A stretch of 64,000 bases of DNA. It comes from Bacteroidales bacterium (GTDB lineage Bacteria > Bacteroidota > Bacteroidia > Bacteroidales > UBA932). The notes beneath the pieces are model-generated. The model was not told the origin of the DNA and made no database searches. It was given only the letters and a program-made list of their open reading frames with translations. The stretch's first letter is position 1. Each line of letters opens with the position of its first letter. Location: assembly GCA_017430365.1 (NCBI GenBank), contig JAFRNC010000006.1, positions 186,001 to 250,000 on the forward strand, written 5' to 3'. Both the position numbers and the translations under genes were made by a program. Positions 25,782-46,408 of the stretch are shown piece by piece.

Positions 25782-27646
25782 ATTTCTATAGCGAATGTAA
25801 ACATCCATTTCACCAGACGTACTTCCGGGGTAGTGAACTCCCCTACGGGAAGCTTGAGCAGTACCCAGTTCCATCCCTCATCCAACTGCACGTTCATGGG
25901 ATAGCGTCCGGAACAATTCTCGTTGCCGAAAGGGGTCTCCCAGCCGACAGTGCCCGAATCTCCGACCCAGACAGGCGGAATCAAGGCTACCCCGTTGAAC
26001 CATATGCGGCTTCCACGCCAGTCCCATTCTCCCTGCGGAGGGGCCTGGTCACGTTCGGAACGGCTGTAATTCTGGGTCTCGAAACGCAGTCGGGCCAGCC
26101 GCCTGCGATCCGACCATATGCGTCGCCAGGCATATACGGTACGGTAAGGCTGCGGATCCTTGAAATAGCCCGCCACCGTTCCCGGCCCCCAGACATGGCG
26201 GAAATAGACACCGTTGCCACGCGCCTGGCCCGCTTGCAGTGAACACAGATATGTCCAGGGATCCTCCTGGGCCAACGCTTCTTCCGGTTTGAAAGCGCGT
26301 CCAAGGTCGCCCTCGTTGGAATATGAGTCAGATATCTGCCACAGCACATCCGCCTGGGGGATATAGACATGGGGCGCATTCTCAGGCAATCTTTCCAGAG
26401 CATGTACGAGCCGCCGCTCGAAATCCGCGAAATCCCTGGTTGCCGGATGCATGGGATCTACCGGGAGGCATGTGCCGAAATCGTCGAAGTACTGATATCC
26501 CCCACCCTGCCAGGCCCGTGACGCAAGGGCGACAGCGGAGGGATAGAAATTGTTCTGCACGACTATCTGCCTTTCGTCGGGCAGGTCGCGGTCGTTCCAT
26601 ACAGCCACGATGCTGCCTGCTATGTCTTCGCTTCCCTCCTTTTCTCCACAGATCGTGCTGGTATATAAAGCCACGATGTCGCCATAGGTATCGAAATGGT
26701 TGATGTAGTGAAGCCGGCAGTCTATCGCCGGAATACCCGGCTGCGCCTTGCCGCGGTAACTCCACAACTGGGTCATGTCGATCTCGCCGGGCCGGTAGTT
26801 CCAACCCGGATTCCACGAAACGACCTTCTTACCTTTCGAACGTATCAAGGCTACGATTCCGGGTACCAGTTCCTGATCGGTGAAACGGACCTCGTCGGAA
26901 CCTATATGGATATACGGCACGTCGAAAAGAGCGCAGACTTCTTCGAATATGGTCTTCAGCGCGGCCTTGCCCTCAGGAGTCTGCATCCCGAATCCCATCG
27001 CCCGTTCGAATGCGGCGCTGTGGCCCGGTATATCTATCTCCGGGATGAGCGTAACATGACGCTCGCGGCAGAAGGCTACCAGTTCGCGCACTTCATCCTG
27101 AGTATAAAAACAGCCCGGCTGGCGTATCATCGACCCGGGGGAGGTCAGCTGGGGGAAAGCCCTGATCTCCAAACGCCATGCCTGATTCTCCGTCAGGTGC
27201 CAGTGGAAAACATTGACCTTGAACCTTGACAGATTGTCTATCTCACGCTTGAGTTCATCAAGTGAGATATAACGCCTGCCGACATCCTGCATGAATCCGC
27301 GGATCCGGAACGAAGGCCAGTCGGTAATTGTGCAGCGCGGAATGTCGCCGTTCTCATCGGCGAGCTGGGCGAGAGTCTGGCGGGCATTCCAGACGCCATG
27401 GTCGGTAATGGCGTCTATGCGGATCCCCAGACGGGTCACATGGATCCGGTAAGCTTCGTCCGCATTGCGTTCAACTCCCGGAATCTTCTTCACATAACGC
27501 ACCCGCACATGACGCGGGTGTACCGTTCCCCTGCCGGCTTCCACCTGCTTGGGCCGCGGCAGCAGGTCTTCCACACCGGCATTGGCTGACGGTATCGTTA
27601 TCAGCAGCAGGAATGATATCAGCAGGAACCTTGCGACAGGTTTCAT
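25778..27646 (-). CDS. GH20 beta-N-acetylhexosaminidase
   Basis: 622 aa exported enzyme removing terminal beta-GlcNAc or beta-GalNAc. Signal peptide MKPVARFLLISFLLLITIPSANA; an N-terminal GH20b-like domain; the catalytic barrel starts near residue 110 with FRIRGFMQDVGRRYISLDEL and FHWHLTENQAWRLEIRAFP. HIGSDEVRF holds the catalytic Asp-Glu pair for substrate-assisted cleavage. The C-terminal part is extended by a beta-rich region that may bind carbohydrate. ATG at 27646 shares its A with the nanH stop (TGATG); a GTG one codon upstream is the alternative. It would trim glycans after desialylation. Confidence 0.92.
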   Translation of the reverse strand: MKPVARFLLISFLLLITIPSANAGVEDLLPRPKQVEAGRGTVHPRHVRVRYVKKIPGVERNADEAYRIHVTRLGIRIDAITDHGVWNARQTLAQLADENGDIPRCTITDWPSFRIRGFMQDVGRRYISLDELKREIDNLSRFKVNVFHWHLTENQAWRLEIRAFPQLTSPGSMIRQPGCFYTQDEVRELVAFCRERHVTLIPEIDIPGHSAAFERAMGFGMQTPEGKAALKTIFEEVCALFDVPYIHIGSDEVRFTDQELVPGIVALIRSKGKKVVSWNPGWNYRPGEIDMTQLWSYRGKAQPGIPAIDCRLHYINHFDTYGDIVALYTSTICGEKEGSEDIAGSIVAVWNDRDLPDERQIVVQNNFYPSAVALASRAWQGGGYQYFDDFGTCLPVDPMHPATRDFADFERRLVHALERLPENAPHVYIPQADVLWQISDSYSNEGDLGRAFKPEEALAQEDPWTYLCSLQAGQARGNGVYFRHVWGPGTVAGYFKDPQPYRTVYAWRRIWSDRRRLARLRFETQNYSRSERDQAPPQGEWDWRGSRIWFNGVALIPPVWVGDSGTVGWETPFGNENCSGRYPMNVQLDEGWNWVLLKLPVGEFTTPEVRLVKWMFTFAIEI

Positions 27647-29289
27647 CACAATTCTTTGACTATATCTCTAAGGGGAACGGTCTGGAATGTCATATGGGCG
27701 ACAGAGGACTCATACAGGATGCCGACAGTCTCCGGATCCACCATCGTAAGGCAGGAATAGCCCCAGCCTTCATCTTCGTCGAGCAGAACCTGATCGGCCT
27801 CTTTCCAAGTCATGCCGTCATCAAGCGAAGCTTTTATGGTGATATGGTTCCGGCCACGTACGGTATCGGGATTCGAGAAGAGCAGGATGTGCCGTCCCAG
27901 CACATTCTCCTCCGCTTTGACCGAAATCAGCGAAGCCATGCAGACCGGTTCGCGCAGGGCGCTGCGTGAAGTCGGATGCTCGGTCCAGGTGCGGCCGAGG
28001 TCCTGGGTGGTGGCGATGGAGCGGGAGCCGCCCCTGTTGTCGCGCATGTTCAGCATAAGGGTGCCGTCGGACAATTCTGCCACCTGCGCTTCTGTAGTGG
28101 AGTCCTTTGCGGCTACATGGCGATTCCACGTCCTGCCATGGTCCTTGCTGTAGATGATTCCGGCGTGCGGCGTCCGGCCGGCATCAAATTCGGTATACTG
28201 GCTTGCAAAGACTATTGTGCCGTCGGAAGTCGTGATGCCCCGGCCAGGCCCCTGGAAGAAAAACGCCCAGGTAGAATCCTTGATCTGCGGAGTCACGCTG
28301 ACAGGCCGGCTCCAGGTCTTGCCGTCATCCGAACTTTTCACCATAACCAGCTGGGCGGTATAGTCGGGTGAGATACCAGGGACCGTGCTCCACCACGCCG
28401 TTGCCACGCCCATGCCGTGTGTCCATATCGAGGCAATCCAGGCATCACCCGTTTCCCTGTCAACCAGGATGGCGGGATCCCCCGCCCCGTTCTGTGCCTG
28501 CGGCAGGCCGCCCCATTCCCCGAAAGATATAGGACGACGCATCTTCTCCCACGTACGGCCTCCGTCCGTTGAACGGCTCAGGCCTATATCGATATGCTCC
28601 TGAAGGTCCTTGCTGTTGTTATAACGCACGTCATAGACTGCCAGAAGGGTCCCTTTGTTGGTCGTCACCAGACCGGGGATGCGGTACGCCTTGCTGCCGT
28701 CGTCACCCGCTTTGCGGACCCCGACGCCCATACGATGGACGATTCCCTTAGGCGATACGGTCGCGACAGCGGCAGGGGTACCGTCTACGACAGCACCGCT
28801 CAGGGTGGCGGTGACCACATCGGCAAGCCTGGCCTTTCGATGTTTCATCTCGACGCTGATCCAGAAATAATTGATACCGGGGAAAAGCGGCTGCTCCGCT
28901 TTGAGTACCAAATGGGAACCAGGCCTGCGGACCCTTGATTTGCAGATGGAATACGAAGGGTTGGCCTTCAGCGTGTTCCCGGGATCCATCGATGAGATAT
29001 AATCTATGGGATGGAAAGCATCCTTTCTGGAAGTCCTGGTTTCAGTGCCGCCATAATAGAGCTTTATGGCACGGATATGTTTGACATTGGTCTGTGGTCC
29101 GAGGTCAAGCACGACCTCGTCCAGCCGCTGCGCCGAAGTGGCGGTGAGTTTGAGTTCGAAAAGCACATTGTCTTCACGCTCTATCAGGACAGGAACCTGT
29201 TTTTCGCGGACGAAGAGCGTGTCCGCAGCAAAGGCATCGGCGGCCAGAAGCAAGGCGGAAGCGGCAACTGATAATATGAATCGTCTCAT
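27646..29289 (-). CDS. nanH: Exo-alpha-sialidase (GH33)
   Basis: 547 aa exported sialidase. Signal peptide MRRFILSVAASALLLAADAFA. An N-terminal beta-sandwich domain (about residues 25-180) precedes the six-bladed propeller. The YRIP motif is in KAYRIPGLVTT. At least five Asp boxes appear: SRSTDGGRTW, KSSDDGKTW, YSKDHGRTW, TTQDLGRTW and ASLDDGMTW. Catalytic GDPAIL and RDNRGGS arginine regions are visible. It cleaves terminal sialic acid from host glycoconjugates and provides the substrate for the whole locus. It starts 36 bases after nanS. Confidence 0.95.
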   Translation of the reverse strand: MRRFILSVAASALLLAADAFAADTLFVREKQVPVLIEREDNVLFELKLTATSAQRLDEVVLDLGPQTNVKHIRAIKLYYGGTETRTSRKDAFHPIDYISSMDPGNTLKANPSYSICKSRVRRPGSHLVLKAEQPLFPGINYFWISVEMKHRKARLADVVTATLSGAVVDGTPAAVATVSPKGIVHRMGVGVRKAGDDGSKAYRIPGLVTTNKGTLLAVYDVRYNNSKDLQEHIDIGLSRSTDGGRTWEKMRRPISFGEWGGLPQAQNGAGDPAILVDRETGDAWIASIWTHGMGVATAWWSTVPGISPDYTAQLVMVKSSDDGKTWSRPVSVTPQIKDSTWAFFFQGPGRGITTSDGTIVFASQYTEFDAGRTPHAGIIYSKDHGRTWNRHVAAKDSTTEAQVAELSDGTLMLNMRDNRGGSRSIATTQDLGRTWTEHPTSRSALREPVCMASLISVKAEENVLGRHILLFSNPDTVRGRNHITIKASLDDGMTWKEADQVLLDEDEGWGYSCLTMVDPETVGILYESSVAHMTFQTVPLRDIVKEL

Positions 29290-29325: not shown

Positions 29326-31437
29326 CTACTTACCCTCCAGCCCATCGGCTTGGACCCGGAAGGTGGACGCCGGAAGACCTGCGCCATTATAGAGATTGGC
29401 ACGGGTATAGGGTTCCCATGCGTAGCGTACGATCCTGGGATGTTTCACTTCGGGACAGGTCAGTATTATCGTCTCCCCCGCTATTTCGGCCTTGGCCGGA
29501 TGGAAGCAGCCTTCGTATTCTGCGACTTCGAAGCCGACAATCGGATTGATACGCATACCTGAAGTATCACCTGCTGAAAGGCCGCATGCATAATCGAACG
29601 AAACTACAACACGCTCGCCGTCAGCAACTGCACTGCGTACCAGCGGACCGGACGGTACTACACCCGAGAAACCATATGTGTCATGCAACGCCCACCGGGC
29701 AAGCCGGAGTCCGACAGGCCGTTTTTCTTTGTAATGTACGTCAGCCGGATCGCCGAGATCGGAGGTGACCGCCATTCCGAGCCCGGGACGGGCAGCCAGA
29801 AGACGTCTCTGGCTGTCGCGGAACCACGGCCACGAAGGCCTGTTCAGACTTGACAGCTGGACATAGTAGAATGGCATCCGGGGCTGTGCCCAATAATCCC
29901 GCCAGCTGTCGACAAGCAGGCCGAACAACTTTTCGTGAGCAGCATAGTTGTGTGCGTTCGATTCCCCCTGATACCAGATTACGCCCCTGACGGGATACCG
30001 GTCGAGCGGCAGGATGCCTGCTTCGAACAGATAACACGGCTGATAAGGATGGCGGTCACTTTTGCCTGTACGGTTTTCAAGGTTCTTTTTCGCCCTTCCG
30101 CGCGCCCAGTCCTGGATGAAATCATTTCCGAGCCAGTTCTCGAGAATCTTGGGAAACTCTACCTCAAGGGTATTCCTGTCGATCCATGACTCGCATGTCG
30201 ATCCTCCTACTGCATTGCAGATCAGGCCTACGGGCACCTGCAGGGAATCGCGCAGCATCCGCCCGAACCAATAGCCGACTGCAGAGAAGTCGCGGGCCGC
30301 TGCAGGTGAACTGACAGTCCAGACAGTTTCCTTGAAATAGTCAAGATTGTCCACACTGTCGAGTGCAGATGCAGGCCAGGCCACGTTGTCGGTTCGCCAG
30401 CGTGCCTTCATGTCGTACAAGCGCAGGTCGGAGTCACCGGCAGATGCTATAACCGATTCCGGAGAGACAGTCTCTTTCAGCATGAACTCCATATTTGACT
30501 GCCCGCTGCAGAGCCAGACCTCCCCCACGGCTACATTGCTGAAAGAAAACTTGCGGTCGCGGGTGGAGACAGTCAGTTTTATTCCTGTCGTCGCAGCCAT
30601 GGGGTCGAAAACGACGCTCCAACGGCCGTTCCTGCCCGCAAACGCCTTCCGAACTTCCCTGCCCAGCCGGACAGTAACTTCTTCGCCGGCATCGGCAGTA
30701 CCATGTATGTCCAGCGGCACATCCCGCTGCAGCACCATATTGTCGGTATACAGTTCGGAGAGCTGCAATCCGCCATAATCACCAGTAATCTCCTGAAACA
30801 CCGTCCTGGCGAGCTGTTTTGCGCCGAATGCGTCAGGGTGGACCGCATCGGGAATGTGCTGCGGATAAGGATAGAGAGGCGTATGGAAATCTATGAGTTC
30901 GGCTCCGGAAAGTTCAGCCACCACCTTTATCGACTCCTGTATCTCGTCATGCCACTGCTTGGTCCCGGACTGGAAACGCCAGTGGCGGTCAGCAAGTGGC
31001 GTCATGAGGGCGATAATCAGGCGCGCGTCCGGACTGACAGTCTTGAGGGAATCTATCAGCGCAAGGTAGTCGCCCACGAATTCATCCCGGTAGTTCGGCC
31101 AGTTCCGCGGGTCGGTATCGTTGATTCCCAAATGCATGACAATGATATCGGCCGGCCACTGCATTGCGGCGCGGAATTCCTCCTGCTCCATATAGGGCCG
31201 GTGTCCGTGACGCAGCAGAGTCGCGCCGTTCTTGCCGAAATTCCCCACGACATAACTGTCGCCGAGCATCTGCTGCAACCTGGCGGGATAGGATTCGGTC
31301 TCCCGGTCCTCCAGGGTCATACCGTAGGTGATGCTGTCACCTATACATGCCACGCGGACCGTTTTGCCGGCGGGACGGGCAGCCGTCAGAAGCAGCGCCG
31401 AAAGCACCGCGGCGATAATTATGAAATATCTTTTCAT
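29326..31437 (-). CDS. nanS: Two-domain sialate O-acetylesterase (SGNH + family DUF303)
   Basis: 703 aa exported esterase removing O-acetyl groups from sialic acids so that sialidase and lyase can act. Signal peptide MKRYFIIIAAVLSALLLTAA. The first domain (about residues 25-200) is GDSL/SGNH: CIGDSITYGM, NFGKNGATL, LGINDTD and DAVHPDAFG. The second (about 210-690) is the sialate O-acetylesterase family: CSGQSNMEFML, NAVGGSTCESWI and VIWYQGESNAH. Dual-domain NanS of this kind is known in Tannerella and Bacteroides. The 31437 ATG is preferred because the promoter at 31466-31496 would start transcription about at the other candidate, 31461. Confidence 0.93.
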   Translation of the reverse strand: MKRYFIIIAAVLSALLLTAARPAGKTVRVACIGDSITYGMTLEDRETESYPARLQQMLGDSYVVGNFGKNGATLLRHGHRPYMEQEEFRAAMQWPADIIVMHLGINDTDPRNWPNYRDEFVGDYLALIDSLKTVSPDARLIIALMTPLADRHWRFQSGTKQWHDEIQESIKVVAELSGAELIDFHTPLYPYPQHIPDAVHPDAFGAKQLARTVFQEITGDYGGLQLSELYTDNMVLQRDVPLDIHGTADAGEEVTVRLGREVRKAFAGRNGRWSVVFDPMAATTGIKLTVSTRDRKFSFSNVAVGEVWLCSGQSNMEFMLKETVSPESVIASAGDSDLRLYDMKARWRTDNVAWPASALDSVDNLDYFKETVWTVSSPAAARDFSAVGYWFGRMLRDSLQVPVGLICNAVGGSTCESWIDRNTLEVEFPKILENWLGNDFIQDWARGRAKKNLENRTGKSDRHPYQPCYLFEAGILPLDRYPVRGVIWYQGESNAHNYAAHEKLFGLLVDSWRDYWAQPRMPFYYVQLSSLNRPSWPWFRDSQRRLLAARPGLGMAVTSDLGDPADVHYKEKRPVGLRLARWALHDTYGFSGVVPSGPLVRSAVADGERVVVSFDYACGLSAGDTSGMRINPIVGFEVAEYEGCFHPAKAEIAGETIILTCPEVKHPRIVRYAWEPYTRANLYNGAGLPASTFRVQADGLEGK

Positions 31438-31465
31438 ACAATGAGAAATCTGATTATCCATTCTT

Positions 31466-31600: not shown

Positions 31601-33151
31601 TCAATAGCCGGGATTCTGCTGCTCGAAAATGAGAGGGTCACCGTTGAGCACGTTGACGTCGATAGGCCACAGGAGCTTATATGCCTGGCTGCTGGAGAGG
31701 ACCGGAGTTGCAGTGCCCCCGAGTGTCTCGGGATATGCCGCAGCGGCGGAGAAGGCCAGCGGCTGGCCGGAAGCGTCGTGCATTCGGATCAGATCGAACC
31801 AGCGGCTTCCCTCGCCCACGAATTCCTTGTCACGCTCGCGGAGGATCGCGAGTTCCGTAGTGGCGAAATCGGATACCGGGAACATGGGAGTGTTCACGCC
31901 CTGGTATGCGCGCTGGCGGATCTGGTTGATGTAATTCGCGGCCGCGGCATAGTTACCAAGGCCGTTCTCGACCTCAGCCATCATAAGGACCGCGTCGGAA
32001 TAGCGGAAAATGATGACATCGGAGTCGTAGTAGCGGTTGGAACCTTCCGCATGACCCATATATTTGAGCATGGCGGATCCGAAGGTACGGTTGGCCGGAT
32101 CCGGCGAGGAGTAGCACTCGTGGAAAGTTGCCGCTCGCCTCTGGTCCTCCTTGTCGAACGCCTTCACGAACGACTCGATATATTCGTCACGGTGCATGCC
32201 GCCGCCTTTGAGGTCGAGCGGGTCGCCCAGGATATTGCCATTCTCGTCATAGAACGAGTTGCACCAGATGGCCGCCTGATACACGAACTGGGTACCGGCA
32301 TTGGTGGTCTCGTCCTTGCTGAAGTACAGGGCGAAGATCTCCTCCCTGTTGCCCTTGTTGGAAGCGCTGAAAATCGAGGCGTAGTCGGACAGAAGTTCGA
32401 ACGGGCCGCTCAGCACATTCTGGAGCGCGGCCTTTGCGGTATTCAGGTCGGCATTGCCGGTCGCATTGTGCTTTGCGATTCCGTCGTCTGTTGTCACCTT
32501 GGCGGCCCACATGTAGATCTGGGCTTTCAGCATCTCGGTGGCATAATAGCTCCATGCGTGACGGTCGATGGTGCGGTCGGTGCCGAAAGCGGCTTCAGAA
32601 CGGCCGATCTCGTCCTTGAGGAACTGCATCACCTCGGCTGCGCCTGAACGGGCCTTGTAGTACTCCTCAAGCTGGGTGGTCCGGAACAGCACCACGTCCT
32701 GCTCAAGCGGGACACCGCCGTAAGTGCGGTAGAGCATGAAGTAGTAATAGGCGCGGATGCCATAGGCACGGGCCAGATAATAGTTCCTGCTGGTTTCAGT
32801 CAGGAAATCGCAGTTGCCGCTGACCTGTTCGATGAAATTGTTGACCTGGAGAAGACGGCTGTAGTAGCCGGCCCAGTTGGTGACACCCGTGTCATCCTTG
32901 TTGATGGCATTACGGGCTATGGTCTGGTAGGAAGTGGACACGCCTTCGATAGTGGCGTTCTGCTTGAGCGTGCCGCCACGGACTTCACCGAGCACGAAAG
33001 GATAGGAATACATGCCGCGCATATGTGTAAGCAGGCCATAGTATTCACTTTGAACTTGCGATTCATTCTTCCAGTAACTTCCGGAAGCGGAGTAGTCGAT
33101 AGGAGCCAGATCCAGGATGTCGCAGCCACCCAGGAACAACAGTCCTGCCAT
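31601..33151 (-). CDS. nanU: SusD/RagB family lipoprotein (NanU-like); signal peptide interrupted by amber codon
   Basis: 516 aa if started at the ATG at 33151. Typical SusD: LLFLGGCDILDLAPIDYSAS at the lipobox, tetratricopeptide-like region (YYLARAYGIRAYYYFMLYRT), C-terminal SRWFDLIRMHD and terminal FEQQNPGY. It would cap the SusC pore and bind sialic acid. The natural start should be the ATG at 33178, 18 bases after the SusC stop, giving MK-stop-FFAYIAMAGLLFLGGC: codon 3 is TAG. Starting at 33151 leaves only nine residues before Cys and no positive n-region, so export would be poor. No other disruption was noticed. Confidence 0.88.
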   Translation of the reverse strand: MAGLLFLGGCDILDLAPIDYSASGSYWKNESQVQSEYYGLLTHMRGMYSYPFVLGEVRGGTLKQNATIEGVSTSYQTIARNAINKDDTGVTNWAGYYSRLLQVNNFIEQVSGNCDFLTETSRNYYLARAYGIRAYYYFMLYRTYGGVPLEQDVVLFRTTQLEEYYKARSGAAEVMQFLKDEIGRSEAAFGTDRTIDRHAWSYYATEMLKAQIYMWAAKVTTDDGIAKHNATGNADLNTAKAALQNVLSGPFELLSDYASIFSASNKGNREEIFALYFSKDETTNAGTQFVYQAAIWCNSFYDENGNILGDPLDLKGGGMHRDEYIESFVKAFDKEDQRRAATFHECYSSPDPANRTFGSAMLKYMGHAEGSNRYYDSDVIIFRYSDAVLMMAEVENGLGNYAAAANYINQIRQRAYQGVNTPMFPVSDFATTELAILRERDKEFVGEGSRWFDLIRMHDASGQPLAFSAAAAYPETLGGTATPVLSSSQAYKLLWPIDVNVLNGDPLIFEQQNPGY

Positions 33152-33196
33152 GGCGATATATGCAAAAAACTATTTCATGATGTCTCTGGATTGTGA

Positions 33197-36100
33197 TTAG
33201 AAGGTGATGTTCGTACCGAAAATGATCGTGCGCGGCAGTGAGTATGCGCCCCAGTTGTCTGCGCCGTACTCGGGAGAGCACAGGAGTTTGGCCCTGGTGA
33301 GATAGCCGAGATTCTGGCCGGTAACGAAGATGTTAAGGCGTTCCATGTTGATCTTGCCGACGATTGACTTGGGAATGTCGTAGCTGAGGGTGACTTCACG
33401 GAAAGCCAGGTAAGATGCGTTATAGGTAAACATCGACGTATTGTCGTGATAGTAGTTGCGCTTGCCCAGCTGGTCCGCCCAATAATACATCGGGTATTTG
33501 CCTTCCTTCGTATCAGGATTGAAGGACTCGCGTGTCTGGACGAGGGTGTTGAAGGTTCCCTGCATGTTACCCATGAACCAGGGGGTCACACCGTCGAACA
33601 CAGTGTGTCCGAGCGCATAGTCGAAACGGGCGGTAAGGGCAAGGCCTTTCCACGCCGCGTTGGCGACGAAACCGCCGGTCCACTTGGGAACGGAATTGCC
33701 GAGTTTGACGCGGTCGTAGTTGTCGATTATGCCGTCACCGTTGACATCTTTCCACTTGACGTCACCGGGCTGCACAGGGAGGGCTCCCTTCTTCTCAGCA
33801 TCGGTAAGACGTTCCCATGCGGCCGGGCCGTAGAGCCAGATGGAAGATGAAGCCCAACCTGCGGTGGACTGGTCGACCAGTTCTCCGGGAATCTCGCTGT
33901 AGTCGCGATAGATACCTTCAGCGACGAAACCGTAAAGGTCACCGGGCTCCTGCCCTTCCTGATAGCCGCCTACCCAGATCAGTTTGCCGGTATTGGGATC
34001 GTAACACTGGAAAGCGCTCTGCCGGTTGTTATCGAGGCCGTTATAAGGGAGCTTGATGATCTTGTTGCGGTTGTAGGCGCCATTGAGAGTCAGATTGACT
34101 TTCCAGTCCTGCGTATTGACGGCGCGCCAGTTGATTTCGAATTCGAGACCGCGGTTGCGGATCTCACCGTTGTTTGAAGTGATGCCGGTTACGCCGGTAT
34201 GACTGGGAACGGTGATGCTTGCGATCTTGTCGGAAGTATGGCGGTTGTAGAATGTGAAATTCGTATTCAGTCTGTTCTCGAAGAAACTCAGGTCGATACC
34301 TGTCTCGAAAGTCCAGGATTTCTCCCAAAGGAGGGCAGGTACGGGAAGGGTGCTCAGGAGGATGGTCTTCTGGCCGTTATACTCGGTCTGGGAGCCGTAG
34401 GCGCCCTGCACGGTATAGGTACCGATAACGTTGTCGAGGTTACCGTTGGCACCGTAGGATACACGCAGCTTGGCGAACGAGATCACGTCGCGTGCACTTT
34501 CCATGAAATCTTCTTTCGAGAATACCCAACCTGCGGAAACGCCCGGGAAGAAGCCCCAGCGGTTCTGCTTGGCGAGACGCGAGTAGCCGTCATAACGGGC
34601 GACGACCGAAAGCAGATATTTTGCATCGTAGTCGTAATCGATCTTGGAGAAGAACGAGAGGACGCGGTTCTGGCTGTGCCAGGAGTCGATGTCGCGCGTA
34701 TCCTTGGCCGCATATGCCAGATCCTGGAACTCGTCTGTCGGGGCGTTGTAGCCGTAGGCGTCGAAGCCCTTGGTACCCTGGTCGAGGAATTCAGTACCGA
34801 GCATCGCGGAAACCGTATGCAGGCCGAAAGACTTATTGAAGTTCAATATGCCCGTATAGGTCTGGTTCAGGTTGCGCTGATAGTAGTCATATGATTCACG
34901 GGAACGATACCAGTTGTTAGGTCCGCGGAGATAGTCCTTCATGAAGTACTCCTGCTTTGTATCTTCATAGTACCAGCTGGCACTTGCCCTGAAGTTGAGC
35001 CAGGGAGCGAAGATAATGGTAAACTCCTGGTTCATGTTGAACTTGTCCGTATTGTAATCATAGGTACGGTACGGGTTCGAAAGACCGACGGCAGCGTCCT
35101 GGATATTGCCGCGGGGGCTGGGGTTGTACTCGCCGTCGGCATTATAGACGCGGAAGGTCGGAGGAAGCGAGAGGGCTCGGGCGAAATAGTTGCGATGGCT
35201 GTTGCCGTTCTTGATCGGAGTCCATGTGTTGTGCGAGAAATTGAACGAAGAACTCGACTTGAGCCATGTCCTGATCTTGTAGTCACCGTTGAACACGAAG
35301 GAAAGGCGGTTGTAGTCATTGTCGAGGGCGTTGCCTTCGGAGTGGTTGTATCCGATTGAAGCATAGTAGCTGCCCTTGTCATTGCCTCCCTGGAAGTCGA
35401 TGCCGTAGTCCTGCGAGAGGGCCGGTGACTTGAAGTTGATGTCGGAAACGGTCTCTCCCTGCCAGAATACGAGTTCATGGCCGGTGACGGGGTCGGTCAT
35501 CTTTCCCCAGCGGGAATCGGAAAGCAGTGAACTGTACTGTCCTGAAGCGTTGTCGAACACTCCCCACAGGGCACGGCTGTTCACCCGGCCGTCAAGTACA
35601 TTCCCGTCAGCATCCCAATACATGTTGCCGGTACCATAGGGCTGCACGCCTGTGAGTGAAGACATGTTGGCGAAACCGCGCCAGGAGCCGTCGGACAGTT
35701 TGGCCACCTCGGCGCCGCGCTTGTAAGACAGACGCATATAATACAGGTATTCATCGGAAGGAAGGAACTCATACGGCGTCCAGAAATAGTTGGCCGACAG
35801 TTTTGCACGTACGTTTATCGCGCTGTGGCCTTCCTTGCCGCGCTTTGTCGTTACGAGGATGACCCCGTTTGCCGCACGGGCACCGTAGATGGCCGTGGCG
35901 CCGGCATCCTTGAGGACCTCCATCGATTCGATGTCGTTGGGGTTGATGTCACTGAGGCTGGAGCGCTGGGCACCGTCCACGATGATCAGGGGGGAACCCG
36001 TACCGTTGAGAGATGTTCCGCCGCGGAGGACTATGCTCGGAGTGGCACCGGGGTCACCGGAAGTCTGCGACACACGCAAACCGGCCACAGCACCGGAAAG

Positions 36101-36544
36101 GGCCTGTGCAGGGTTTGTGTGCATACCGGAAGCGAGGGTCTCCTCTTTCACGGACGCGATCGAGTTCGTAACCTTGGAGCGGAGCTGACGGCCGCCGTAA
36201 GCCGTTACCACGGTCTCGGCGAGCATCTCATTATCCTCGGTAAGGGTTACGTCTATCACGGAACGGCTCGATACGAGCACCTCCAGATCCTTGTAACCGA
36301 TGCAGGTAAACTTCAGGGTGCCGCTCGCGGGGACGGACAGGCTGTAAGCACCGTCGATGTCGGTCGACGTGCCTACGGTCGTTCCCACCAGCACGACATA
36401 AGCACCGATAATCGGTTCATTGTTGCTGTCCACCACCTTGCCGGTGACGGTCACATTCTGTGCGAAGGCCGATACCGACAGGGCCAGCATCGCCATTGCA
36501 GCAAACATAAACCGTTTGAGGTTTGATAGTTTTTGATGGAACAT
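33197..36544 (-). CDS. nanO: SusC/RagA family TonB-dependent outer-membrane transporter (NanO-like)
   Basis: 1115 aa. Signal peptide through SVSAFAQ (about residue 29), then a carboxypeptidase-D-like regulatory domain (VTVTGKVVDSNNEPIIGAYV to about residue 110), TonB box region (ETVVTAYGG), plug domain with SIVLRGGTSLNGTGSPLIIV and MEVLKDAGATAIYGARAANG, and a large beta-barrel ending in FGTNITF. With the SusD partner it would import free or bound sialic acid; homologous to NanO of Tannerella by context. It follows nanE by 33 bases without its own promoter, so it is read from the nanT promoter. Confidence 0.94.
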   Translation of the reverse strand: MFHQKLSNLKRFMFAAMAMLALSVSAFAQNVTVTGKVVDSNNEPIIGAYVVLVGTTVGTSTDIDGAYSLSVPASGTLKFTCIGYKDLEVLVSSRSVIDVTLTEDNEMLAETVVTAYGGRQLRSKVTNSIASVKEETLASGMHTNPAQALSGAVAGLRVSQTSGDPGATPSIVLRGGTSLNGTGSPLIIVDGAQRSSLSDINPNDIESMEVLKDAGATAIYGARAANGVILVTTKRGKEGHSAINVRAKLSANYFWTPYEFLPSDEYLYYMRLSYKRGAEVAKLSDGSWRGFANMSSLTGVQPYGTGNMYWDADGNVLDGRVNSRALWGVFDNASGQYSSLLSDSRWGKMTDPVTGHELVFWQGETVSDINFKSPALSQDYGIDFQGGNDKGSYYASIGYNHSEGNALDNDYNRLSFVFNGDYKIRTWLKSSSSFNFSHNTWTPIKNGNSHRNYFARALSLPPTFRVYNADGEYNPSPRGNIQDAAVGLSNPYRTYDYNTDKFNMNQEFTIIFAPWLNFRASASWYYEDTKQEYFMKDYLRGPNNWYRSRESYDYYQRNLNQTYTGILNFNKSFGLHTVSAMLGTEFLDQGTKGFDAYGYNAPTDEFQDLAYAAKDTRDIDSWHSQNRVLSFFSKIDYDYDAKYLLSVVARYDGYSRLAKQNRWGFFPGVSAGWVFSKEDFMESARDVISFAKLRVSYGANGNLDNVIGTYTVQGAYGSQTEYNGQKTILLSTLPVPALLWEKSWTFETGIDLSFFENRLNTNFTFYNRHTSDKIASITVPSHTGVTGITSNNGEIRNRGLEFEINWRAVNTQDWKVNLTLNGAYNRNKIIKLPYNGLDNNRQSAFQCYDPNTGKLIWVGGYQEGQEPGDLYGFVAEGIYRDYSEIPGELVDQSTAGWASSSIWLYGPAAWERLTDAEKKGALPVQPGDVKWKDVNGDGIIDNYDRVKLGNSVPKWTGGFVANAAWKGLALTARFDYALGHTVFDGVTPWFMGNMQGTFNTLVQTRESFNPDTKEGKYPMYYWADQLGKRNYYHDNTSMFTYNASYLAFREVTLSYDIPKSIVGKINMERLNIFVTGQNLGYLTRAKLLCSPEYGADNWGAYSLPRTIIFGTNITF

Positions 36545-36577: not shown

Positions 36578-37762
36578 TTATTGGTTTCCTGTGATTTCCA
36601 GACAAAGTTTCCTGGCCTGGACCATCATCCTGGGGATGTGGAAGGGGCCTTTGAACAGATTGCCCTTGGCGTGATGTGCGGGAGTGCCGTCACGGTGCAG
36701 ATAGCCGTACCATTCGCCGCACACGGCGTCGGGGAAATGGGAGTAGGTCCATTCGCTGACGCGCCTGTGGAGTTCGAGATACTTTTCATCACCGGTGGCC
36801 TCATAGGCATATAGGGTGCATATGATGGCCTCGCAGTGCGGCCACCAGAACTTCATATCCTGCGAGTAGTCCTGATTAGGGAAACCCTTGCAGTCCCGGA
36901 AATTGAGCAGGCCGCCGAATTCATCGTCCCAGCCCCAGTCCCATGACCAGTCGAAAATGGTAAGGGCCATATCCGTAAGGGCTTTGTCCCAGCCGCGGTG
37001 TTTCGACTCTTCGAGCAGGAACCAGGCGGTCTCGATGCAGTGGCCCGGATTGATCGTGCGTCCGTTCAGGGTATCGATGAACTCGCCGTCCGGCCCGACG
37101 GTCTCAAGCAGGCATTTGTATTCAGGATGCATGAAGTATTTGCGAAGGGCAGTGATGGAACGGTCGATCTGTGCGTCCAGGCAGGGATCGGATATGGCCT
37201 TTCGTATGCAGGCGGCCGTGTTCACGAGAATCATGGTGATGGAGTGTCCCCGAGTCTTCATGACCGGCTCGTACTTGGCGGGCAGGAAACCCGGCTCGGC
37301 GAGGAAGCGCTGCATGCTTTTGAACAGTTCAAGCGCCTTTCCCGCATATGACATGTCTCCGGATGCAAGGGCATATTCGCTCATTGCGATGGCCGCAAAA
37401 GACTCGGAGAATACATAACGGCGCTTGCGCAGCCCTACCCCATCCTCCGTCACTTCGAAATACATGTGGCCGTCGGGGGCGAAGCAGTGCGCTTCAATGA
37501 AATCGATGCAGCTTTTCGACGCCTCAAGCCATTCGGGATTCTTCTCCACATTGTTGTAGGCGAAGGCGGCAGTAAAGCCGAAGCGTCCCTGAAACCACAC
37601 GGACTTGGTGGTGTCCATTATGGTTCCGTCGCGGTCGAGGCAGGTATAGACTCCGCCATGTACGCGGTCCAGGCCATGCTTCATCCAGAACGGCAGGATG
37701 TCGTCGACAAGGTCTTTGCGGTAACGCTCAGCCCACTCTTTCAAATATAGGTCGGCGTCCAT
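36578..37762 (-). CDS. nanE: N-acylglucosamine 2-epimerase (AGE/RenBP), converts ManNAc to GlcNAc
   Basis: 394 aa (alpha/alpha)6-barrel epimerase. Recognisable segments are VHGGVYTCLDRDG, WFQGRFGFTAAFAYN, RGHSITMILVNTA, NPGHCIETAWFLLE and FWWPHCEAI, which carry the conserved His residues. In Bacteroides fragilis an epimerase of this type acts after the lyase, producing GlcNAc without the ManNAc-kinase route of E. coli. The start at 37762 is 2 bases after the nanA stop; longer upstream reading lies inside nanA. No NagC-type GlcNAc kinase lacking an HTH is in the window, so the next step must be encoded elsewhere. Confidence 0.92.
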   Translation of the reverse strand: MDADLYLKEWAERYRKDLVDDILPFWMKHGLDRVHGGVYTCLDRDGTIMDTTKSVWFQGRFGFTAAFAYNNVEKNPEWLEASKSCIDFIEAHCFAPDGHMYFEVTEDGVGLRKRRYVFSESFAAIAMSEYALASGDMSYAGKALELFKSMQRFLAEPGFLPAKYEPVMKTRGHSITMILVNTAACIRKAISDPCLDAQIDRSITALRKYFMHPEYKCLLETVGPDGEFIDTLNGRTINPGHCIETAWFLLEESKHRGWDKALTDMALTIFDWSWDWGWDDEFGGLLNFRDCKGFPNQDYSQDMKFWWPHCEAIICTLYAYEATGDEKYLELHRRVSEWTYSHFPDAVCGEWYGYLHRDGTPAHHAKGNLFKGPFHIPRMMVQARKLCLEITGNQ

Positions 37763-37764
37763 CG

Positions 37765-38682
37765 TCAAAGAATGTTGCAGTGATTGAAGAAATCGATGGC
37801 TTCGAGTTCGGCACGGAGCTGTTTCTCCTCGTCGTCGGTGACATTGCGGAAAGGAGTGCGGTTGGGACCGAGGTCCAGTCCGATGAGCTTCATTATGCGC
37901 TTGCCTCCAACAATGTTTCCGCGGAAGTGGCAGATGACGTCGATGACGTCCTGGGCGTAGTTCTGGAGTTCGCGGGCCCTTTCCATATCCCCGGCATAGA
38001 AGGCATCCTGGATGCCCACCAGGCAACGGCCGTTATAATTGGAAGTACCGCAGATGCCGCCGCGGGCTCCGCCGAGCGCCATGGAGGCGAGAATGGTCTC
38101 GTCCTGGCCGTGAAGCATGTCGAACCGGCCGTCCTTGTAACGGCGGCACTGGTTGTACTCGTAGAGGCTTTCGAATGTATACTTGATGCCGGCGAAGTTG
38201 GGCACTCGGCCGTCGAGGGCTGGCAGCAGGTCTGTCATCGGCAGGAAAGCGCCGTTGAAAGCCGGAATGTGGTAGTAATAGAACGGCAGGTCAGGAGCGC
38301 CGCAGGCGATTTCCTCTATGTACTTGCAGAGTTCCTCGATGCGCCCGATCTTCGGGAAGGGCGGAGCCATTGCGCCGATGCCCCAGGCTCCTATCGCCTG
38401 GGCGTGCTCGGCGAGCCTGCGCGAATCGCGTACGCAGCAGCTGCCCACGTGCACGATCACCTTGAATTCCCCGGGAGCGTATTTGATCCAGGTTTCAGCG
38501 AGCTTGATGCGCTCTTCAGTCGTAAGCATGTAGCCCTCACCCGAAGATCCGTTGATGAATACGCCGGTGAGGCCGTTTTTCTTGAGCATCGCAGCATAGG
38601 CCGGGATGGGTTCGTAGTTGACGTCGCCGTTCGGAAGGAACGGGGTGAACGGTGCGTCGATAAGTCCGATGATTTTTTTCAT
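37765..38682 (-). CDS. nanA: N-acetylneuraminate lyase
   Basis: 305 aa class I aldolase of the DapA/NanA family, splitting Neu5Ac to ManNAc and pyruvate in the cytoplasm. Visible: LIDAPFTPFLPNGDVNYEPI at the N-terminus, INGSSGEGYMLTTEER (substrate loop), YYYHIPAFNG with the catalytic Tyr, and FAGIKYTFESL with the Schiff-base Lys. It lies 8 bases after nanT and 2 before nanE, within one operon. Confidence 0.95.
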   Translation of the reverse strand: MKKIIGLIDAPFTPFLPNGDVNYEPIPAYAAMLKKNGLTGVFINGSSGEGYMLTTEERIKLAETWIKYAPGEFKVIVHVGSCCVRDSRRLAEHAQAIGAWGIGAMAPPFPKIGRIEELCKYIEEIACGAPDLPFYYYHIPAFNGAFLPMTDLLPALDGRVPNFAGIKYTFESLYEYNQCRRYKDGRFDMLHGQDETILASMALGGARGGICGTSNYNGRCLVGIQDAFYAGDMERARELQNYAQDVIDVICHFRGNIVGGKRIMKLIGLDLGPNRTPFRNVTDDEEKQLRAELEAIDFFNHCNIL

Positions 38683-38690
38683 GATATATA

Positions 38691-39944
38691 TTATTCCATA
38701 TTGTCGGTTTTGGGCTTGAGGAAAATGAGCTGCATGGCAAGGGCGGCGATGACGATGCAGCCGAGCACGGCGAAGCTCACTCCGAGGCTGACCCCGTGGT
38801 CTTTCCAGCGGCCAAGAAGTGTCGTTACCAGGGCTCCCATGGCCACACCGGTCATGTTCATGATACCGTAAGCCGTGGCGCGATATTTCGAGGAGATGAA
38901 CTGGCAGAGGATAGGCATGTTGTTGGCATCGAACAAGCCGTAGCCGACGCCGAAGAGCAGGCCTGCCGCGATGAGTGGCACCATGCTGTGGCCAAGTCCC
39001 AGCAGGATGAGCGCCGGTACAGTCAGTCCGAGGCCTATGGCGCCGGTGTAGACACGGCCGCGTATGTTCTTCCTGACCCAGTTGTCGGAGAGGCGTCCGC
39101 CCAGAATCACGCCGACGAACGATGCGGCTGCGATTGTCAGGGTGGATATTATACCGGCCCTTTCCGGCGAGATGCCGAGGTTGTCGCGGAAAAGTGTGGG
39201 CAGCCAGTTCTTGGTAGCCCAGCCCGGCAGCGAAGGCACGGCGAAATAGATAAGGATGACCCAGAACGCCCAGGTGCCGAGCACCACCCCGAGACCTTTG
39301 AAGATTGATTCCTTTTTCACCGGTCTGTCGGAGATACGTTGAGCCGGAGCCGCTTCATGCCCGGGATTCTCGTGAAGGAAGACTATCAGGATAATGCCGT
39401 ATACCACGCCTATTATGCCGAACCAGTGGAAAGTCAGACGCCAGGAAAGCGCGGCGGCGAGTATGGCTCCGAAACCGCCTATTGCCTGGCCGACATAAAG
39501 TCCGGTCATGTGGACCCCCACGGCGAGGCTGCGCGATCTGCCTTCATGCCAGTCGGCGATGAGCGACAGCGCCGAAGGGATGTAGAGAGCCTCGCTGATG
39601 CCCATCAGGGCGCGAAGCGCATAAAGGGTCCGGAAATTCTCGGCATAGCCCATCAGGAAGGTAACGGCGGACCAGACGATCAGCGAGCCTACGATCAGCC
39701 ATTTGCGGCTGAGACGGTCCGCCACCATTCCGGCGAAAGGACTCAGGACTGCATAAACCCACAGAAATACCGCCATCAGGGCGCCGAAGGCTTCGGCTTT
39801 CTGAAGTTCCACTATATCGGCCTTCATCGCCTCCTGCATTGTGGAGAGCATCTGCCGGTCCATATAATTGAGCAATGCGACGACCCAGAGAAGGCCGACC
39901 ACCACCCACGGATATCCCTTTGCGCTTTTGAGTTTTTCCAGCAT
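38691..39944 (-). CDS. nanT: MFS sialic acid transporter NanT-like
   Basis: 417 aa inner-membrane MFS permease with 12 predicted helices. Typical motifs are WVVALLNYMDRQMLSTM in helix 1, GMVADRLSRKWLIVGSLIVW in the loop 2-3 motif and RALMGISEALYIPSALSLIA near helix 5. Substrate is assigned from its position as first gene of the nan operon. The 39944 ATG is chosen because the promoter -7 element lies at 39962-39969; a longer reading to 40022 would run through it. Confidence 0.9.
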   Translation of the reverse strand: MLEKLKSAKGYPWVVVGLLWVVALLNYMDRQMLSTMQEAMKADIVELQKAEAFGALMAVFLWVYAVLSPFAGMVADRLSRKWLIVGSLIVWSAVTFLMGYAENFRTLYALRALMGISEALYIPSALSLIADWHEGRSRSLAVGVHMTGLYVGQAIGGFGAILAAALSWRLTFHWFGIIGVVYGIILIVFLHENPGHEAAPAQRISDRPVKKESIFKGLGVVLGTWAFWVILIYFAVPSLPGWATKNWLPTLFRDNLGISPERAGIISTLTIAAASFVGVILGGRLSDNWVRKNIRGRVYTGAIGLGLTVPALILLGLGHSMVPLIAAGLLFGVGYGLFDANNMPILCQFISSKYRATAYGIMNMTGVAMGALVTTLLGRWKDHGVSLGVSFAVLGCIVIAALAMQLIFLKPKTDNME

Positions 39945-39961
39945 AATTCCAACTTTGCCTA

Positions 39962-39991
39962 CAAAGATAAGTTTATATTTCAAAAAACAAA
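39962..39991 (-). promoter_or_regulatory. Promoter of the nanT-nanA-nanE-susCD operon
   Basis: On the minus strand TTTG (39991-39988), 18 bases, TATCTTTG (39969-39962), 17 bases before the nanT ATG. Direct TTTTTGAAAA repeats lie immediately upstream. Confidence 0.7.
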
Positions 39992-39996
39992 TCCGC

Positions 39997-40044
39997 TTTT
40001 TGAAAATTTTTGAAAAATTCATTCCGCATTAATTCAAATTTGAA
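39997..40044. promoter_or_regulatory. Candidate operator region between nanT and the ROK regulator
   Basis: Two adjacent copies of TTTTTGAAAA (39997-40006, 40007-40016) and a perfect palindrome TTCAAATTTGAA (40033-40044). Related TTCAAAAA half-sites lie at 39979-39986 and 40072-40079. ROK repressors bind AT-rich palindromes with TT/AA arms. The region is AT-rich in general, so chance matches are possible. Confidence 0.45.
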
Positions 40045-44413: not shown

Positions 44414-46408
44414 CTAAGCCTCCTTTTCGGGTTCGCTGTCCTCGCGCAGCATCTTGTTGGGATCTATGCCGCCCTTGCGGGGACCGAATATCGCCTCCAG
44501 GTCTTCCGAGAAGACCACTTCCCTCTCGAGAAGCAACTTGGCAAGACGCTCGAAGCCCTCACGGTTGGTCGTCAGTACCTCCATGGCGGTGGCATGAGCC
44601 TGCTCGATGAGGCGTTTCACCTCCTCGTCTATCAATTCGGCGGTCTTTTCGCTGTAAGGCTTGGTGAATGCCATGTCACGGCTGCCCGTGGAGTCGTAGA
44701 ACGAGATGTTGCCCACCTTTTCGCTCATGCCGAAATATGAGACCATGGCATATGCCTGCTTGGTCAGTTTTTCGAGGTCGCTGAGCGCTCCTGTGGAAAT
44801 CCTTCCGTTTACAATCTCCTCCGCCACCCGGCCGCCTATGGTTGCGGCCATCTCATCCATCATCTGCTCGGTAGTGGTGAGCTGCCTTTCTTCAGGCAGA
44901 TACCAGGCTGCTCCGAGGCTCTGCCCGCGGGGGATTATGGTCACCTTGAGCAGAGGATTGGCATTCGGCAGCAGCCAGCTCACAGTCGCATGGCCGGCCT
45001 CGTGATGGGCTATGGTATTCTTCTCCTCGGGAGTAATTATCTTGCTCTTGCGCTCGAGGCCGCCTACGATACGGTCGATGGCATCGAGGAAGTCCTGTTT
45101 CTCAACCTCATTCTTGTTTTTGCGGGCTGCTATCAGGGCGGCCTCGTTGCATACGTTGGCTATGTCCGCGCCGCTGAAACCCGGGGTCTGTTTGGCAAGG
45201 AAATCCATCTGGAATCCGGGGGCGAGTTTGATGTTGCGGAGATGGACCTTGAAAATCTCGAGCCGCTCCTTCAGTTCGGGAAGGTCGACATGGATCTGGC
45301 GGTCGAAACGGCCGGCACGCATAAGAGCCTTGTCAAGGATATCGGCGCGGTTGGTCGCCGCAAGGATGATGACTCCGGAATTGGACCCGAAACCGTCCAT
45401 CTCGGTAAGCAGCTGGTTCAGGGTATTCTCCCGCTCATCATTGGATGTGAATCCCGCATTCTTGCTGCGTGCGCGTCCTACGGCGTCGATCTCGTCTATG
45501 AACACTATGCAGGGAGCTTTCTCCTTCGCCTGGCGGAAAAGGTCGCGGACACGGGAAGCGCCGACGCCCACGAACATCTCCACGAAATCGGAGCCGGACA
45601 TGGAGAAGAAAGGGACCTCCGCCTCACCGGCCACAGCCTTGGCCAGGAGGGTCTTGCCTGTACCGGGAGGGCCGACCAGAAGTGCGCCCTTCGGGATCTT
45701 TCCGCCCAAAGCGGTATATTTCTTGGGATTCTTGAGGAAATCCACTATCTCCTTCACCTCGACCTTGGCCTCTTCCATGCCGGCGACATCCTTGAATGTC
45801 ACCTTCACATTGTTGGACTTCTCGTAGAGCTTCGCCTGGGACTTGCCGACATTGAATATGCCGCCTCCGGCTCCCCCGCCGCCCATGTTGCGCATGGGGC
45901 GCATGAACAGGAAGAACATGAACAGAAGCATGAGCGGGAAGATCAGCCATTCGATGATGGGGCCCCAGTAGCTCTTGTGCTCTTCCACGACCACCTTGAA
46001 ACGGTTCTCCTCCGGAAGGCTCTCCACAAGTTCATCGAGCTGGTTCTCAGCGTCGAACTTGTCCGAAACGAGGAAATAGAAATGGGGACCTCCCTTCGGC
46101 TCCCTTCCTCCGTAAAGATTCTTGTATTTGTCGAGAGACGACTGTTTCAGGAAGATCTCACCCTTGTGCTCGTTCCTTACATAGACGAGTTTGTCCACGT
46201 CTCCGCTGACGAGGAGACCCTCCTTCACCTCGATCCACTCTTTCTTGAGAGGGTCGGCGGTACCTGTGGACGACCACATGTAGGCCAGTCCAAGCAGGAG
46301 GAAAAGATAGACGAGGGAAAACCAGTTGAATCCCCTTCTCGGCTGGCGGGTCTTGCGGGGTCCGCCGTCCTGCGGCCCCTGTGAGCCTTTATTCCTAAGT
46401 TCCATCAC
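44414..46408 (-). CDS. ftsH: ATP-dependent zinc metalloprotease FtsH
   Basis: 664 aa membrane-bound AAA+ protease that degrades misfolded membrane proteins and regulatory substrates. Helix 1 is near residues 28-46, a periplasmic domain follows, helix 2 is near 150-170 (LIFPLMLLFMFFLFM), then the AAA domain with GPPGTGKTLLAKAVAGEAE and FIDEIDAVGRAR, and the zinc-binding HEAGH near residue 465. Overlaps rsfS by 4 bases. A second Met at residue 2 is the equally likely start. Confidence 0.96.
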   Translation of the reverse strand: MMELRNKGSQGPQDGGPRKTRQPRRGFNWFSLVYLFLLLGLAYMWSSTGTADPLKKEWIEVKEGLLVSGDVDKLVYVRNEHKGEIFLKQSSLDKYKNLYGGREPKGGPHFYFLVSDKFDAENQLDELVESLPEENRFKVVVEEHKSYWGPIIEWLIFPLMLLFMFFLFMRPMRNMGGGGAGGGIFNVGKSQAKLYEKSNNVKVTFKDVAGMEEAKVEVKEIVDFLKNPKKYTALGGKIPKGALLVGPPGTGKTLLAKAVAGEAEVPFFSMSGSDFVEMFVGVGASRVRDLFRQAKEKAPCIVFIDEIDAVGRARSKNAGFTSNDERENTLNQLLTEMDGFGSNSGVIILAATNRADILDKALMRAGRFDRQIHVDLPELKERLEIFKVHLRNIKLAPGFQMDFLAKQTPGFSGADIANVCNEAALIAARKNKNEVEKQDFLDAIDRIVGGLERKSKIITPEEKNTIAHHEAGHATVSWLLPNANPLLKVTIIPRGQSLGAAWYLPEERQLTTTEQMMDEMAATIGGRVAEEIVNGRISTGALSDLEKLTKQAYAMVSYFGMSEKVGNISFYDSTGSRDMAFTKPYSEKTAELIDEEVKRLIEQAHATAMEVLTTNREGFERLAKLLLEREVVFSEDLEAIFGPRKGGIDPNKMLREDSEPEKEA

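Follow-up and report, generated by a model that had tools for sequence, protein, structure and literature searches.

An in-frame amber codon at codon 3 of a NanU-type susD gene in the nan locus of a Bacteroidales genome

The window considered here, a stretch of 64,000 nucleotides that is part of contig C11 of an assembled Bacteroidales genome from gut or rumen, carries a nan locus on its minus strand. This locus includes a sialidase (BNR) gene (27646-29289), a GDSL/sialate O-acetylesterase gene with its own TAG terminator (29326-31461), a susD-family gene of which a coding region of 516 aa ending in TGA remains open (31601-33151), an intact SusC/TonB-dependent receptor gene of the NanO type (33197-36544), a GlcNAc 2-epimerase-family gene (conserved part 36578-37768, listed ORF 36578-38026), a NanA-like aldolase gene of the DHDPS family (37765-38682) and a NanT-like MFS transporter gene (38691-40022), with a GH20 gene also among the neighbours of the susD copy.

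The product of the susD-family gene matches SusD_RagB (PF07980, E 2.9e-24) and SusD-like_3 (PF14322, E 2.3e-12), and a phmmer comparison aligns its residues 4-506 with the NanU structure 4l7t (E 5.6e-57). The best solved relative is PDB 3nqp, of the SusD superfamily (E 5.8e-93), whose matched chain spans the mature part only. Because its neighbours encode a SusC, a sialidase, a GDSL/sialate esterase, a GH20 enzyme, an epimerase, an aldolase and an MFS transporter, the gene is, on sequence grounds, a NanU-type SusD (hereafter nanU) and a putative sialic-acid binder. Like the NanU of Bacteroides fragilis or Tannerella forsythia (NanOU; 4l7t, PMC3969230), it is the SusD-family partner of a TonB-dependent receptor, and aldolase, epimerase, MFS, sialidase and esterase genes lie nearby, as they do beside NanOU in these species. 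Unlike its counterparts there, the present copy carries a stop codon at position 3, and its binding of sialic acid is putative. The gene is thus a NanU-type SusD by descent, present here as an interrupted allele.

The assembly does contain the interruption reported in the earlier note. Read on the minus strand, the start codon ATG (33178-33176) is followed by AAA (33175-33173) and then by an in-frame amber codon, TAG (33172-33170), and the region reads identically in contig C11 of the genome. The next codons (TTT TTT GCA TAT ATC GCC) lead to a second in-frame ATG (33151-33149), itself followed by GCA GGA CTG TTG TTC CTG GGT GGC TGC, the last of which encodes the lipobox cysteine (33124-33122). 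The stop therefore breaks a lipoprotein signal peptide (33178-33122) that reads MK*FFAYIAMAGLLFLGG-C, and this allele, with TAG at codon 3, carries no export signal that is intact from the conserved start. The remainder of the gene is undamaged, as had also been claimed, with the frame open for 522 codons past the TAG and no second lesion found in it. There is no alternative start upstream, because the in-frame TAA of the susC terminus closes the nanU frame shortly 5' of the ATG, and the amber codon would in any case also stop translation from any start further upstream.

Fifteen homologues of nanU (four from genomes of the same genus and eleven named records, the partial L042 being left out) were used to examine what the interrupted codon may have been. 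All 15 have Met-Lys-Lys at the aligned ATG, which in the present gene is preceded by an A at position -3, and in place of the TAG 13 of them carry AAG and the other two AAA. A lysine codon retained at this position in 15/15 homologues is, as judged from the alignment, conservation beyond chance. The ancestral codon was previously proposed to be TAT or AAA; TAT occurs in none of the 15, and the proposal is better amended to AAG, which is both the prevailing codon and one base away from TAG. The lesion would then most simply be a single A-to-T transversion, AAG to TAG, the most parsimonious route since AAA to TAG needs two changes. Homologues that naturally start at the internal ATG, whose existence would have made the upstream stop irrelevant, were also sought, and none of the 15 uses this start. 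Nor does any of them have a methionine matching 33151, which is therefore not a conserved start.

The rest of the gene bears on the age of the stop. In comparisons with its two closest homologues nanU has pairwise dN/dS values of 0.10 and 0.12, a sign of strong purifying selection, and dN to the outgroup L003 is 0.280, against 0.307 and 0.308, so that this lineage is not accelerated. Marks of an old pseudogene (relaxed selection, extra lesions) were looked for in the nanU frame and not found, dN/dS being about 0.1 and the lesion single. Given strong purifying selection, the lack of acceleration and the absence of a second lesion, the stop should be either very young or an error, in agreement with the initial view of a recent change or a sequence error. 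Unrelaxed selection would fit either of the two equally, an assembly error as readily as a mutation that is very young.

The explanation we favour, and consider reasonably probable, is a single A-to-T transversion (AAG to TAG) that caused a recent loss of function of nanU, with TAG acting as a normal stop. The conserved lysine codon AAG would have changed to TAG very recently on this lineage, and ribosomes starting at the conserved ATG would make only Met-Lys. Only the ATG at 33151 leaves any signal peptide before the cysteine, and low expression by restart there is possible. Surface NanU would be absent or much reduced, as expected from a restart signal that is uncharged and has a short hydrophobic region. 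The intact NanO-type SusC would probably sustain some uptake of sialic acid, at any rate where the sugar is abundant, by analogy with B. fragilis nanO, which alone almost completely restored growth on sialic acid in E. coli lacking sialic-acid porins (PMC3969230). Because nanO alone almost suffices in that system, losing NanU may have a mild phenotype, one that shows chiefly when sialic acid is scarce. The earlier expectation that loss of the SusD lid would alter sialic-acid uptake in this strain is thus overstated, the loss or reduction of the lid itself being still predicted.

The main competitor of a recent mutation is a consensus or assembly error, in which the lysine codon is truly present and NanU normal. 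This we regard as rather unlikely, while noting that one wrong base would suffice, that the base in question departs from a codon conserved in every homologue, and that nanU is under full purifying selection and otherwise undamaged. Against it stand the quality of the genome (11 contigs, 98.7% completeness, 0.58% contamination) and the nature of the change, a substitution and not a homopolymer-length error. In addition, a comparison of orthologues along about 50 kb that is syntenic with the genome G010 brought up no further premature stop or frameshift. The only other stop difference in this comparison is a C-terminal end-point at 44414, where the protein tails diverge. Such a clean comparison makes a sloppy assembly less likely, although a single wrong base could still have occurred. 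No same-species DNA was found among viral contigs.

Two side observations come from the same genomes. The protein encoded at 44414-46408 ends in EDSEPEKEA, against a longer PETQETPETPETPEA-type tail in G010, the rest being 92% identical. The comparison of the nan locus, which took in G010, G064 and G065 (L178-L186), places the nanO-nanU pair (31601-36544) nearer to G064/G065 (SusD 79-81%, SusC 78-80%) than to G010 (SusD 65%, SusC 75%). For the flanking nan genes the order is the opposite, with 73-93% to G010 and about 51-77% to G064/G065. As the pair and its flanking genes have different nearest relatives, this suggests that lineages have exchanged the two transporter genes.

If the start had shifted, functional NanU would be produced from the ATG at 33151, be it directly or through reinitiation following an MK-stop minigene, and the stop would be close to neutral or would serve as a two-codon leader by which expression is tuned. 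E. coli lacI mutants with early nonsense codons are known to show translational restart, and the present arrangement resembles them in having a stop within the first codons and an in-frame ATG soon after (here 27 nt downstream), with the lipobox cysteine retained and the coding region conserved. Unlike in lacI, a putative restart here would also delete the charged part of the signal peptide. The product would begin MAGLLFLGG-C, with a hydrophobic region of about eight residues and, as previously noted, neither lysine nor arginine to form a positive n-region, whereas a Lys or Arg lies close to the start in each of the 11 further SusD N-termini recovered from the other SusD_RagB matches of this genome. 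Besides the lack of the methionine in every homologue, the internal ATG lacks the A at -3 that favours initiation in Bacteroidetes (PMC6847099) and that the conserved ATG has, and the RNA fold at the nanU start is not unusual (z 0.86). Together these points make a tolerated start shift look quite improbable, and its more specific form, a maintained two-codon leader with NanU made from 33151 at a reduced but useful level behind a short uncharged lipoprotein signal, very improbable indeed.

At the starts of other genes the motif ATGAARTAG forms no pattern that would speak for such a leader. It occurs at 70 sites genome-wide, against 43 for a reversed-pattern control; among 68 sites examined, eight have an open stretch of 80 codons or more behind the TAG. 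The two sites that look like real genes, L171 (G000:C11:353196-353204) and L163 (G000:C10:207957-207965), were considered as similarly interrupted genes and rejected, since in each the motif lies in frame shortly ahead of an ordinary ATG start that the gene has of its own. The genes behind them encode a lipoprotein and a protein that is SufB-like by eye, and both cases look like chance. A compensatory frameshift in nanU (+1 at AAA TAG T, then -1 on TTTTTT) seemed contrived and was set aside, because the nearest homologues align without gaps from the ATG through the region of Met 33151.

Decoding of the amber codon as an amino acid, by a suppressor tRNA such as the earlier note had suggested looking for or by recoding, is scarcely credible, its sole support being the open frame beyond the TAG, whereas none of the 45 tRNA genes found in the genome carries CTA as its anticodon, the genome encodes RF1 (with a match above its cut-off), TAG is the terminator of 9 of the 33 window genes sampled, among them the adjacent esterase gene of the nan locus, and no internal stop occurs within the 16 SusD_RagB matches of the genome (15 besides nanU). 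From these features TAG appears to be a normal stop in this genome, which would leave a dipeptide as the only product from the conserved start. The tRNA search also returned a weak match of 35.7 bits (L088, G000:C5:8871-8944), called as tRNA-Val with an AAC anticodon, which is additional to three ordinary tRNA-Val genes and is perhaps a degenerate tRNA.

Taken together, the TAG at codon 3 is most likely an ordinary recent nonsense change or a one-base error, with no sign of unusual decoding. At the level of titles and abstracts, nothing directly relevant to premature stops in SusD genes was found in the literature. Annotating nanU from the next ATG would mask the early stop. At most, the allele would offer a natural knock-down or knock-out of nanU, with which the need for a SusD lid could be tested when NanO is intact; otherwise it represents ordinary strain-level variation or error.
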